In this document: piece by piece, positions 26,452-30,986 of the stretch
How positions within the stretch are numbered: the stretch's first letter is position 1
Layout: every line of letters begins with the position of its first letter
Source: Cyanobium sp. NS01
GTDB taxonomy: Bacteria > Cyanobacteriota > Cyanobacteriia > PCC-6307 > Cyanobiaceae
Assembly: GCF_014280235.1 (NCBI RefSeq)
Contig: NZ_CP047940.1
Span: 930,001-994,000 of the forward strand
Direction of reading: 5' to 3'
DNA: 64,000 nucleotides
Program-made: the position numbers and the translations under genes
Notes under the pieces: model-generated
What the model was told of the DNA's origin: nothing
What the model saw: only the letters and a program-made list of their open reading frames with translations
The model's database searches: none

Positions 26452-27051
26452 TCACCACTCGTTCTGGAGCGGGCTGCCCCAGTCATCGCCTGACGCCGCA
26501 GCCGGCTGGCTGGCCCTGGGGGCCGCCTGCGCCGTGTGTTGCGCTGCTGCGTGGGCTGCGTGGGAGGCCGCGGTTTTGGCCCTGGCAGGGGCTGCGGCGG
26601 TGGCCCGGCGAATCACCCGGAAGGGCACGGCCACGGTGGGCACGGCCTCACCGGCCGCCCGGGTCGGCCCCGCCACTGGGGTGTCGAGAGGCGGCTGTGG
26701 GGCAGGAACGGGGGTGTTCCAGGGCTCCGGCTGGCCGGCGTCATCCCCTGCGTCGGGCTCAGGCCAGGGGCGCCCGCGGCTGCCGTTCTCCCGTTCCAGA
26801 GGCTGCCGCACCTGTCGCTGCAGGGGTCGCTGCTGGCCGGCGGCCAGGGCCAGGCCGGTGCCGAGGGCACTGAGGCCGGCTCCGGCCGTGGCCGCCACCA
26901 TGATCCATACCCCGATCGGCAGGGCCGGCGAGGTCCAGATCAGCAGGCGCAGCGCCACGGCGGGCCTGGGGTTGAAGGCGCCGATCAGCAGGGCTGCCAG
27001 CAACGGGGCGAGCAGGGGGAGCAGCAGCAGCTGGCGCAGCAGGGGGGTCAA
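26452..27051 (-). CDS. Hypothetical membrane protein with Pro/Ala-rich tail
   Basis: 199 residues from TTG at 27051, four bases after the ubiX stop. Two transmembrane helices (about 4-25 and 33-60) are followed by a long polar, Pro/Ala-rich C-terminus without clear folding motifs. No family is recognised. The TTG start is preferred because it removes a non-homologous arginine-rich leader that would overlap ubiX. Co-transcription with ubiX is likely. Confidence 0.6.
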   Translation of the reverse strand: MTPLLRQLLLLPLLAPLLAALLIGAFNPRPAVALRLLIWTSPALPIGVWIMVAATAGAGLSALGTGLALAAGQQRPLQRQVRQPLERENGSRGRPWPEPDAGDDAGQPEPWNTPVPAPQPPLDTPVAGPTRAAGEAVPTVAVPFRVIRRATAAAPARAKTAASHAAHAAAQHTAQAAPRASQPAAASGDDWGSPLQNEW

Positions 27052-27055
27052 GGGT

Positions 27056-27712
27056 TCAGACCTGGGTGGGGATCCCTTCGGGCCGTGGCTCCAGCGTCCC
27101 CATCCCGCGGACCGGGCCCTGCCATCGCTGCAGGTCACCCAGGTCGTAGCCGAGCACGTCAAACACCCGGATCACCAGGAAATCCACCATGTCCTCAATC
27201 GTGCTGGGCTGCTGGTACCAGGCCGGCACGGGTGGGGCGATCCTGGCGCCCGCCTCGGCGAGGGCGGTGAGGTTGCGCAGATGCACCAGGTTCCAGGGGG
27301 TCTCCCGGGGACAGATCACCAGGGGCCGCCCCTCCTTGAGATGCACATCGGCCGCCCGCTCCACCAGATCGAGGGCCACTCCTGAGGCGATCCGCCCCAC
27401 CGTGCCCATGGAGGCCGGCAGGATCACCATGCCCTTGGTGCGGTAACTGCCGCTGGCGATGCCGGCGGCCTGGTCGTTCCAGCGGTGGCAGCGCAGGCTG
27501 CCGCTCCGGCAGCCGGTCTGATGGCGCCAGAATTGCTCCTGAGCCTCCGGTTCGCTCGGCACCCGCAGGCCGAGCTCCGCCTGCCACACACCGATGGCGC
27601 CGCGGCTGGTGACCATCTCGACCCGTTCACCGGCCTGGAGCAGCAGCTGCAGAGCCCGCTGGGCCAGGGGCTGGGCGGAGGCCCCGGAAACGGCCAGCAC
27701 GACGGGATCCAT
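27056..27712 (-). CDS. ubiX: Flavin prenyltransferase UbiX
   Basis: 218 residues. VVLAVSGASAQPLAQRAL is the N-terminal FMN-binding strand-loop, with the conserved SGAS. VILPASMGTVGRIASGVA matches the central PCS-x-(K/T) region, and RPLVICPRETPWN is the characteristic UbiX motif. It attaches a prenyl group to FMN to make the cofactor of UbiD decarboxylases, which act in quinone synthesis. It begins 4 bp after the RNase-like gene stop. Confidence 0.94.
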   Translation of the reverse strand: MDPVVLAVSGASAQPLAQRALQLLLQAGERVEMVTSRGAIGVWQAELGLRVPSEPEAQEQFWRHQTGCRSGSLRCHRWNDQAAGIASGSYRTKGMVILPASMGTVGRIASGVALDLVERAADVHLKEGRPLVICPRETPWNLVHLRNLTALAEAGARIAPPVPAWYQQPSTIEDMVDFLVIRVFDVLGYDLGDLQRWQGPVRGMGTLEPRPEGIPTQV

Positions 27713-27716
27713 CGGT

Positions 27717-30056
27717 TCAGGCCTCGCTCAGCACGGCGACCGGGGTGAAGGGGTCGATCTCAGGATCCCCGCTCTCGGTGTCAGGGATGGCTGCCTCGCT
27801 GGAATCGGCGCCCTCTGCCATGGGAACGGCGAGATCGATCTGATGGCGCAGGGCATCCACCTTCTGGATCTCCACCTCCACGGCGTCGCCGAGCATGTAG
27901 GTGCGGCGGTTCTTGCGCCCCACCAGCCGGTTCTGGCGGGAGCGGTACTCGTACCAGTCGTCCTTGAGCGAACTCACGTGCACCAACCCCTCCACCTGGG
28001 AGGGCGGCACTTCCACGAAGAAGCCATAGCTCTGCACGCCGCTGATCACCCCGGGCAGCACCTGGCCGACGAGGGGCTCGGCCTGGCGCGCCTGGGCCAT
28101 GGCCAGCAGATCCGCCTCGAACTCCACCAGAAAACGGCGACGCCCGTTGAGCCGCTGCAGCAGGCCCTGGTCCCTGGTCTGCTGGAACGGAGCAAGGGCG
28201 CTGTTGGGCAGCAACGCCCAGTCGATCGTGCCGTGACAGGAATCGGCGGCCAGGTCTACGCCGATCTTGTGGCGCACGCTGGGACGGTCCTTGCCTTCGC
28301 TGAGGAGCAGGGTCAGCAGCTGCTGGTTCCAGATGTCGACGTAGTGGAGGGTGGGGCAGCACCAGGGGGCCAGGGCCGCCGGCCTGCCATCGCGTTCCTC
28401 CTCGGAGAGTCCGGCCACGGCATGGCGACCGGGCTGCTCCGAGAGGCTCACCGGTTTCAGCACGCCTCGAAGCTGCTGCTGCAGGGGACGGCAGCGGTCG
28501 GTGGCAGCAAAGGCGGCCGCAAGTTCGGCCCCACTGGCGTGGCCCTCCTCACCGAGTTCGAGGGGGATGTCCAGAGCCAGGGCTGCCCGGGCCACGTCGT
28601 TGAGATCGGCGGCCTCGGGAGGCGGGTTCAGGGCGTAGATGGCGGGGAGGTTCAAGGCGCTGAGGTGATCGCCAAGGGCCATCTCGGCCATCAGGAAGGC
28701 CTCCCGCAGGATCGCCGTGGGGTGATGGGCCGGCAGCTCCACGAACCAGCCCTGCCCGCCGCCTTCAGGTGACGGCACGGCCAGGTCGCCCAGGCTGTCG
28801 ATCAGGGGCATGGACAGCTTGAGATCGATGGAGCCCTGGGCCAGACGCCGCTGGTGCAGCTGCGCGGTGAGCCCCACCAGAGCCTCCAGCTGGCCCAGCT
28901 GCTCCTTGATCGGCTTGAGGGCCGCCGGGGTGGTGCGGGCTTTGGGCTTGCGCTCCGCCAGGGCTTCCAGGGCCTCGGCTCCCACTGTGGCGACGGGCTT
29001 CACCAGGCTTCGGCAGAAGCGGTAGTGCTCCAGCACGCCTTCCGGGCTGAGCTCCAGGGCGACCGAGAGCGCCGCCTGGCTCTCGCCCGGCTTCCAGGCC
29101 GTGGCCTTGATCAGGCCGGGGCTGAGCAGGGGGAGCCACTGGCGCCCGGTGCAGAGGGCGTCGGCCTGCTCGCGCAGCCAGAGGTCGAGGCTGCCGTTGG
29201 CGCTGAGCCGCTCAGCCACGGCGGGGCTGTGGACCCACAGGGTCCAGCCCCCCTCCCGCTCCTCCAGGGCCAGAGCCGCCAGCTCGGGGGCGTTGCGTCC
29301 CTGCCAGCCACTGATCAGCAGGCAGGGCTCGCTGGTGAGATCGGCACGCTCCTTGGCGGCAAGACTTTTCAGCGCCGTACGGGGCGCCGTGGAGCGGGTG
29401 TTGAGCCGGTGCTTGGTGAGCAGCAGGTCGAGGTCGGCGGCCTCGCCGCCCCGGATCGGCAGGCGGCGGGCCACGTGGCCCTGGGGAGCGAACTGCGCCA
29501 CGGGGTAGCGATCAATCGCCACCTCCACCACGGAATTCTGCTCGGGATCGAGATAGCTCGAATCGCCAGCCGGAAGGGTGACGGCGGTGAGCAGGCGGTC
29601 GTCGAGGGGCAGGGCCACCAGGCGTTCGTTCTGCTCCTCCACCTGGGCCAGCATCGAAGTGGTCTGGCGGGCCAGGATGCAGCGCACCCCCCCCTCCGGG
29701 GAGCGGCGCCTGCCGCCCTCGCGGGTCACCTGCACCAGCACCCGGTCGCCGTTCCAGGCGTGGTTGAGCTCGTGGTCACGGATGTAGATGTCCTCGCCGC
29801 CGTCCTCCCGCAGAGCAAAACAGAAGCCCTTGCTGGAACAGCGCAGCCGGGCCTGAATCAGCTCGGGGGTGTCGCAGCGCTGCAGCCCCTGCTCGGCCTG
29901 CTCCAGCAGTCCCAGTTTCACCAGGGCGTCCACGCCGATCAGCAGCATGGCTTTGTCGCGGGAGTTGCTCAGGCCGAGGGCCTTCTCCAATTTCGTGATC
30001 GGCAGCGGCTCTCCGGCGGGGAGCTGGTCGAGCAGGTCGGCGACCGAGAACTTCAT
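27717..30056 (-). CDS. RNase II/R-like protein with degenerate RNB active site
   Basis: 779 residues. An N-terminal winged-helix region (1-60) is followed by cold-shock-like segments, an RNB-type domain (about 240-600), and a C-terminal S1 domain (about 670-755; GVISGVQSYGFFVEVPP, GLVHVSSL). RNase II and RNase R are 3'-5' exoribonucleases. The RNB entry is altered: after DLTSEPCLLI, where active members have a D-x(5)-D-x-D-D pattern, residues 248-262 contain no Asp. Later RNB motifs such as HYVDIWNQQLL are recognisable. It may bind RNA without degrading it. ATG 30056 is used; the TTG one codon upstream is unlikely. Confidence 0.85.
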   Translation of the reverse strand: MKFSVADLLDQLPAGEPLPITKLEKALGLSNSRDKAMLLIGVDALVKLGLLEQAEQGLQRCDTPELIQARLRCSSKGFCFALREDGGEDIYIRDHELNHAWNGDRVLVQVTREGGRRRSPEGGVRCILARQTTSMLAQVEEQNERLVALPLDDRLLTAVTLPAGDSSYLDPEQNSVVEVAIDRYPVAQFAPQGHVARRLPIRGGEAADLDLLLTKHRLNTRSTAPRTALKSLAAKERADLTSEPCLLISGWQGRNAPELAALALEEREGGWTLWVHSPAVAERLSANGSLDLWLREQADALCTGRQWLPLLSPGLIKATAWKPGESQAALSVALELSPEGVLEHYRFCRSLVKPVATVGAEALEALAERKPKARTTPAALKPIKEQLGQLEALVGLTAQLHQRRLAQGSIDLKLSMPLIDSLGDLAVPSPEGGGQGWFVELPAHHPTAILREAFLMAEMALGDHLSALNLPAIYALNPPPEAADLNDVARAALALDIPLELGEEGHASGAELAAAFAATDRCRPLQQQLRGVLKPVSLSEQPGRHAVAGLSEEERDGRPAALAPWCCPTLHYVDIWNQQLLTLLLSEGKDRPSVRHKIGVDLAADSCHGTIDWALLPNSALAPFQQTRDQGLLQRLNGRRRFLVEFEADLLAMAQARQAEPLVGQVLPGVISGVQSYGFFVEVPPSQVEGLVHVSSLKDDWYEYRSRQNRLVGRKNRRTYMLGDAVEVEIQKVDALRHQIDLAVPMAEGADSSEAAIPDTESGDPEIDPFTPVAVLSEA

Positions 30057-30245: not shown

Positions 30246-30617
30246 TCAGGAGCTCGCGTCCTGATCGCTGGGCGGCCCCTGGGCATCAGGCGCCAAGGCT
30301 GGATCCGTGCCGCCCACGGAGATGGCCTGGGCGTGCTCCTCTTCGGCTGCCGCCATCAGCAGCAGCCGAACGCCCAGCACCAGAAAGCCCACTGAGGCGG
30401 CGAGCTGCAGGGTGTCGGTGGGAATCACGGCGGAGAGGGAGCCACCGGCCCCGGCACCCAGCAGGCTGGCCAGCACCAGGGCGCTGGAGCTGCCGGCAAA
30501 CACCGCCCCGGGCCGCGGCGAGGTGCCGCTGATCGTGACGATCGCGAGCTGGGTCTTGTCGCCGAGTTCGGCCAGAAACACCGTGACAAACGTGGAGGCC
30601 AGCAGGGCAAGATCCAT
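30246..30617 (-). CDS. Half-size TMEM165/Gdt1 family cation exchanger, subunit 2
   Basis: 123 residues with three transmembrane helices. FLAELGDKTQLA at about 15-26 is the E-x-G-D-(K/R)-(T/S) motif that binds Ca/Mn in the Gdt1 (UPF0016) family. Full-length members have two such motifs; this is a single repeat and follows a second single-repeat gene with a 6-bp gap. In cyanobacteria such pairs (hemi manganese exchangers) are thought to form a heteromer that moves Mn across the cytoplasmic membrane. The C-terminal tail is polar and acidic. Confidence 0.88.
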   Translation of the reverse strand: MDLALLASTFVTVFLAELGDKTQLAIVTISGTSPRPGAVFAGSSSALVLASLLGAGAGGSLSAVIPTDTLQLAASVGFLVLGVRLLLMAAAEEEHAQAISVGGTDPALAPDAQGPPSDQDASS

Positions 30618-30623
30618 CGGGCT

Positions 30624-30986
30624 TCAGGAGAGGGGGGGCAGGCTCGGAGCGGGGGCCACCAGGTGGAGCACCGCCTGCCGGCCCAGCCACAACCCCAGGG
30701 CCACCATCAGCCCGCCGGCCAGCCGTTCCAGTTGCTGGGCCGGCATCACCCGGGCCAGCCAGCGCCCCAGCAGCACCCCCACGAGGCTGGAGCAGATCAG
30801 GGCCAGTGAGGCCCCCAGAAACACCTGCAGCGGGCGGCCCGACTGGGCCGAGAGCAGCAGGGCGGCCAGCTGGGTCTTGTCGCCGAGTTCGGCCAGGAAC
30901 ACGGTGGTGAAGGTGGTGATGAACGCCACCCCCCAGCTGCTCCGTTCGGTCGCTGGGTGAGCGCTGCCCTGGCTGTCGCTGCTCAT
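30624..30986 (-). CDS. Half-size TMEM165/Gdt1 family cation exchanger, subunit 1
   Basis: 120 residues, three transmembrane helices. VFLAELGDKTQLAALLLS is the conserved Gdt1 motif. The start overlaps the YkgJ gene stop (30983-30986), so translation is coupled, and its partner half-protein follows 6 bp after the stop. The two proteins differ outside the motif, which fits a heterodimer rather than a recent duplication. Likely role is Mn2+ or Ca2+ exchange; Mn supply matters for photosystem II. Confidence 0.88.
   Translation of the reverse strand: MSSDSQGSAHPATERSSWGVAFITTFTTVFLAELGDKTQLAALLLSAQSGRPLQVFLGASLALICSSLVGVLLGRWLARVMPAQQLERLAGGLMVALGLWLGRQAVLHLVAPAPSLPPLS

Follow-up and report, generated by a model that had tools for sequence, protein, structure and literature searches.

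The gene at positions 27717..30056 on the minus strand of the window (the whole 64,000-nucleotide stretch of Cyanobium sp. NS01 DNA analyzed here) is, judged from sequence, zam, and its 779-residue product, an RNB-family pseudonuclease, is an orthologue of the cyanobacterial protein Zam. We consider it likely that this Zam descends from RNase R and has become a pseudonuclease, unable to hydrolyze RNA and acting as a redox-switched regulator through the cysteines of its first cold-shock domain (CSD1). This reading is based on the lost catalytic acids, the kept RNA-binding domains, the kept cysteine pair, the presence of an intact paralogue and the orthology to Zam. The Zam family and its non-exonuclease reading are already known from Thomas et al. 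2022 (PMC9145284); new here are Zam relatives with three of the four catalytic residues and the adjacency of zam to ubiX, both modest additions.

Identity of the gene

The open reading frame at 27717-30056 is real. Its start is the ATG at 30056, which is conserved and is the codon next after an in-frame TTG from which the frame would encode 780 residues. Translation from the ATG gives MKFSVADL, similar to the M-x-F-[S/T]-[I/V]-A with which most relatives begin. All domains lie on the minus strand: an OB_RNB or first cold-shock domain (PF08206, 29685..29849, E 6.5e-19), an RNB domain whose catalytic acids are lost (PF00773, 28299..29348, E 9.5e-39, profile positions 1-325 of 326) and an S1 RNA-binding domain (PF00575, 27828..28073, E 1.4e-11), together with a Pfam match to the CSD2 domain (E 2.6e-9). 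The resulting order of cold-shock/OB domains, RNB and S1 matches that of Zam. The top NCBIfam match is RNase R (TIGR02063), whose curated cut-off of 597.85 bits the protein does not reach with its 187.4 bits, and the nearest sequence relative in the PDB is also an RNase R (8cdu, 4.5e-33).

Comparison with the published PCC 7002 protein (PMC9145284) places the equivalents of its redox-active C73 and C79 at the codons for Cys73 (29838..29840, minus strand) and Cys79 (29820..29822, minus strand), in the context LRCSSKGFCFA and with residue numbers identical to those in PCC 7002. In the account of Thomas et al., Zam forms a cyanobacterial RNB clade whose active site is extremely degenerate and whose conservation is concentrated in the OB-fold domains, and many genome annotations call it an exonuclease (PMC9145284). 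They report that zam deletion leads to acetazolamide tolerance and low phycocyanin in PCC 6803 and PCC 7002, that the redox-active C73 and C79 sit in the first cold-shock domain, and that changing either cysteine to serine reproduces the deletion phenotype of low phycocyanin and altered PSI:PSII (PMC9145284). The purified protein showed a redox mobility shift, and neither nuclease activity nor RNA binding was seen with purified PCC 7002 Zam, a result qualified by the tendency of the protein to aggregate (PMC9145284). Naming Zam correctly prevents a false count of 3'-5' exonucleases.

Phylogenies place the window protein with Zam. A tree of 102 RNB proteins, built without the catalytic columns, set 78 Zam rows including the window's apart from 22 Rnb proteins and two from E. 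coli, with SH-aLRT support of 98 for the Zam split and 100 for the clade of the window's family, and a second tree of 87 rows separated the 78 Zam rows from 9 others with support of 92. Both were quick searches that drew program warnings on long branches and uneven composition, and the clade, which holds no named PCC 6803 or PCC 7002 Zam, owes its name here to the cysteines, distribution and architecture of its members.

Searching with the window protein gave matches in 383 of the 388 class genomes, an upper count since a few matches are weak (G455 at 1e-4, G581 at 7e-9); among the 380 class genomes with completeness of 90% or more and contamination of 5% or less, 377 matched. In a sample of the phylum, 188 of 386 genomes matched, 187 of the 188 inside the class; the one match outside it (G010) was weak (1.7e-5) and fell on an RNB protein. 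The single RNB protein of G455 is of the Rnb type. Both tested genomes of its family, which belongs to the class (f57; G455 and G463), hold an Rnb-type protein only and seemingly no Zam, a state useful for dating the origin of Zam. We also considered a viral origin of the gene and rejected it, as six peptide patterns run against viral contigs in one scan brought up no relative.

Loss of the catalytic site

The degenerate motif SGWQGRNAPELAALA (29268..29312, minus strand) stands at the expected site of the four catalytic aspartates and contains zero aspartates and one glutamate. It spans residues 249-263 counted from the ATG, or 250-264 counted from the TTG; the earlier note had read the sequence correctly and numbered it 248-262, off by one. 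The corresponding site of E. coli RNase II comprises D201, D207, D209 and D210 in DSASTEDMDD, and that of E. coli RNase R reads DGEDARDFDD. No aspartate of the window protein aligns to D201, D207, D209 or D210, which bears out the earlier claim that the catalytic aspartates are missing; the four-aspartate set of active RNase II/R enzymes is absent. Two alignments put S, P, L and A at the four positions versus S, N, P and E in two others, the register of the site being uncertain by two residues between alignments. Glu258 is the sole acid that can occupy the D210 position, and D209 is lost in either register. Alignment to RNase II further shows Tyr253 changed to Cys and Arg500 to Leu.

Asp209 is reported to be the most critical residue of RNase II, the D209N change abolishing activity and not RNA binding (PMC3293843). 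All 45 members of the window's family have a non-acidic residue at the D209 position, and so, in the second register, do all 28 members that it resolves. Because the RNB profile is matched almost from end to end and D209 is non-acidic throughout the family, the missing motif is not a chance result. A frameshift or sequencing error is likewise ruled out by the loss of D209 in all 45 members.

AlphaFold2 run on the window protein with 33 relatives (from a scan set of mostly Nostocales) gave a model with a mean pLDDT of 57.8, too poor for placing side chains, and we left it out of the catalytic question. A Foldseek search with this poor model returned RNase R first (1.5e-35, rmsd 20.9), which agrees with the sequence comparison and adds little.

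The question raised in the earlier note, whether the genome has a second, intact RNB protein, is answered positively. A whole-genome search with PF00773 matched two places only, the window gene (136.8 bits) and C1:1225925-1226785 (229.1 bits), where the site reads IDDPDTRDIDD; this second match rules out Zam as the only RNB protein of the genome. The Rnb open reading frame has 684 residues. Among small-genome members of the family (L067-L069, L071), the open reading frames of the intact Rnb partners have only 398 to 452 residues.

Conservation outside the catalytic site

Mean pairwise identity was compared among domains in a genus set (11 proteins), the window's family (45) and other families (61). 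CSD1 scored 0.95, 0.84 and 0.82 and S1 0.97, 0.78 and 0.80, against 0.71, 0.49 and 0.44 for RNB; the catalytic site itself reached 0.60 in the genus set. This higher conservation of CSD1 and S1 than of RNB agrees with the published OB-fold pattern. The suggestion in the earlier note of an RNA-binding or regulatory protein rather than an exonuclease gains support from the loss of the acids alongside retention of the OB/cold-shock and S1 domains, from the greater conservation of CSD1 and S1 and from the intact paralogue, all of which point toward it.

Graded loss across Zam proteins

None of the 154 Zam examined keeps all four acids. Three aspartates, in the form D-[A/V/T/S]-D-D, are kept in 28 of the 154, and the cysteine pair is present in each of these 28. 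The pair is kept in 150 of all 154 (104/106, 40/40 and 6/8 in the three sets) and in the window protein; the four that are short of one or both cysteines are L133, L151, L316 and L319. The 106 proteins come from a 133-row alignment, from which duplicate loci, S1-only matches (L043-L045) and a partial copy (L042) had been removed beforehand; both frames of L152 were left out of the counts, and the second register resolved all four positions in 81 of 108 rows.

Within the window's family, 33 of 45 proteins have no acid at any of the four positions in the register used; the other register gives several members an acid at one or two of the D201, D207 and D210 positions, and no member an acid at D209. 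Tyr253 is Cys in 43 of the 45 and Arg500 is lost in all of them. At least 95% of the family hold W252, P258, L260 and A262 (TTG numbering) at the old site. Among 61 Zam of other families, 55 have an acid at D209, eight have D-D at D209/D210, and three have three aspartates. A further 40 Zam, mostly from families in which D-D had already been seen, include 38 with D-D and 25 with three aspartates and A, V, T or S in second place (25/40 is not a class rate), none with four acids, and all 40 with the cysteine pair. No more than one acid is present in any of eight Zam from families f50 and f18, and six of these eight keep the cysteine pair.

Several irregular copies were seen in passing. Two Zam of genus g38 in family f18, L151 (G082) and L319 (G427), lack both redox cysteines and the catalytic loop, and in G238 of the same genus zam (L152) is split over two reading frames. 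In G126 (L150), a 177-residue open reading frame about 3 kb downstream of zam encodes one more S1-like segment, which shares 56% identity with residues 634-747 of the window protein.

Taken at the level of sequence, the window's family marks the extreme of complete loss in this range. Loss of the catalytic site was probably staged, and the cysteine pair probably predates the complete loss. The simplest reading is a Zam ancestor that lacked D207 and had D-D and the cysteines, with the rest of the site decaying later, because D-D is common to RNase R and Rnb and the cysteine pair to nearly all Zam. We tentatively join these points into one reading, in which an RNase R-like ancestor had only D207 replaced and the cysteines arose before the remaining site was given up. 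Within it, and held just as guardedly, the families with D-[A/V/T/S]-D-D, which mostly have Tyr253, Tyr313 and Arg500, would still hold the early state; their Zam are perhaps slow nucleases, or clamps that hold RNA 3' ends. The parts of Thomas et al. that we draw on make no mention of near-complete Zam sites (PMC9145284).

The trees allow more than one course for this loss. In the first, the eight D-D proteins form one nested group (support 91), implying two changes, or five losses without regain; in the second, they are basal and one change suffices, with support for that placing of only 90. The tree with D-D as one group is 7.05 log units better than the placing of the second tree, and the test does not reject this grouping (p-AU 0.62). 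The trees do not fix the point at which the D-D proteins branch, and the number of losses may be anywhere from one to five or more. Because of this we hold the joint reading at slightly less than even odds. Our claim that D-D was retained from the ancestor is made because regain at the canonical places is unlikely, and not from the trees. If true, staged loss would parallel, in bacteria, what has been proposed for fungal Dis3L2/Ssd1. Since Zam with three aspartates and Zam with a fully lost site share the cysteine pair, activity and redox control could be compared across natural variants; the graded site makes it possible to test how an enzyme of RNA decay turns into a regulator, and may bear on the conflicting activity reports for Zam.

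Genomic neighborhood

Four nucleotides downstream of zam lies a ubiX-like flavoprotein gene (PF02441, 27056..27712, minus strand). We take this neighbor to be ubiX, encoding a flavin prenyltransferase, whose prenylated flavin presumably serves the plastoquinone route. In the window's family, 37 of 39 loci have a same-strand ubiX directly 3' of zam, and the remaining two stop at contig ends; in the scan set (mostly Nostocales) 77 of 80 loci have it, the exceptions being two contig ends and one locus with an 819-base gap. In another 40 loci, with one or a few from each family and six from the window's family, the arrangement recurs in 22 (17 of 34 after removal of those six), and three of the 18 misses have under 700 bases downstream. 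A limited full-text literature search found no paper on a zam-ubiX link, which is weak evidence of absence. The pair may tie Zam to the supply of prenylated flavin or plastoquinone.

Next in line is a gene for a small membrane protein (26452..27078, minus strand), for which a profile search gave a LapA-like match below cut-off. A comparison with the scan-set loci (mostly Nostocales) found no sequence similarity, and a similar-looking gene holds the equivalent place in the Anabaena subtropica locus. Upstream of zam, at 30246-30986, are two adjacent GDT1-family half-transporter genes; GDT1-like matches fall within all 38 zam loci of the family versus none of the 80 scan-set loci (mostly Nostocales).

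Proposed function and alternatives

In the mechanism we propose, the OB/cold-shock and S1 domains would bind either RNA or a component of the decay machinery, for which RNase E is the published candidate, and the RNB domain would serve mainly as a scaffold. A disulfide between Cys73 and Cys79 in CSD1 may switch this binding with the photosynthetic redox state, and RNA turnover and the output of light-harvesting genes would thereby follow electron transport. Speaking against a mechanism based on RNA binding, the purified protein did not bind RNA, in experiments whose authors warn of aggregation (PMC9145284).

Published work on the Anabaena protein complicates the picture. Alr1240 is described in a review as degrading unstructured RNA like RNase II and binding RNase E, and according to Thomas et al. 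the Anabaena protein that binds RNase E is Zam (PMC9145284). If Alr1240 is active and is also Zam, then there are active enzymes among the Zam proteins. The two statements do not sit easily together, and the RNase E link depends on the same Anabaena protein. A published table puts alr1240-alr1241-alr1242 in a single transcription unit, and in Anabaena subtropica zam leads a set of three genes on one strand, which is circumstantial evidence on the identity of Alr1240.

This activity report is one of the grounds for supposing that Zam is a weakly active or differently activated exonuclease, in which Glu258 or nearby Asp or Glu residues hold the metal ions. Glu258 may occupy the D210 position in two of the four alignments, 55 of 61 Zam outside the window's family keep an acid at D209, and 25 of 40 Zam from selected families have three aspartates. 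We regard this as quite improbable given that D209 is never acidic in the window's family, where Tyr253 is Cys in 43 of 45 members and Arg500 is lost in 45 of 45, and that D209N by itself is reported to abolish RNase II activity (PMC3293843). The opposite possibility, that Zam of the window's family is a decaying remnant without function, would account for the fast-evolving RNB domain, the long stem of the family (1.39 changes per column) and the split zam of G238, a member of another family. It is very improbable when set beside matches in 383 of 388 class genomes (an upper count), identities of 0.84 in CSD1 and 0.78 in S1 across 45 family members, and the new residues W252, P258, L260 and A262 (TTG numbering) held in at least 95% of them.

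The arrangement of zam and ubiX suggests a narrower role, in which Zam would act at the RNA level, in response to redox state, on the ubiX operon or on quinone supply. The 4-nucleotide gap in the window and the same-strand adjacency at 37/39, 77/80 and 22/40 loci are consistent with it, but the adjacency is missing at 18 of the 40 further loci and so is not needed everywhere, and shared transcription can have other causes; we think this role unlikely. A pseudonuclease switched through the CSD1 cysteines remains the reading that we prefer.

Comparison with known systems

The closest counterpart is Zam itself, the acetazolamide resistance protein (Synechocystis Sll1910, PCC 7002 A1543), which belongs to an RNB clade and shares its domain order with the window protein. 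The degenerate site, the C73/C79 numbering and the genomic Rnb partner given by Thomas et al. are as in the window. The window's family differs from other Zam only in degree, by also lacking D209, Tyr253 and Arg500, whereas many others keep one to three acids. RNase R has the same domain order, but the window protein lacks all four of its aspartates. The cyanobacterial Rnb (RNase II type, Sll1290), the second RNB protein of the genome, shares a superfamily with Zam and separates from it in trees, and its rows carry D-[D/E]-D-D in 23 of 23 cases.

Outside the bacteria, yeast Ssd1 is an RNase II-family pseudonuclease with an RNB fold that lacks catalysis, as proposed here for Zam, and its cold-shock domains are better conserved than its RNase domain, as in Zam (PMC8934651, PMC8097288). 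It was among the fold matches of the poor model of the window protein (1.9e-19). RNA binding in Ssd1 is reported to have moved to a surface patch, and its branch to have acquired active-site mutations on four or more occasions, with its cold-shock domains conserved (PMC8934651, PMC8097288). Ssd1 descends from Dis3L2 in fungi, and the abstracts of these papers name no redox cysteine switch (PMC8934651, PMC8097288). By analogy, Ssd1 is the closest known counterpart of a pseudonuclease such as that proposed for Zam, a likeness of kind.
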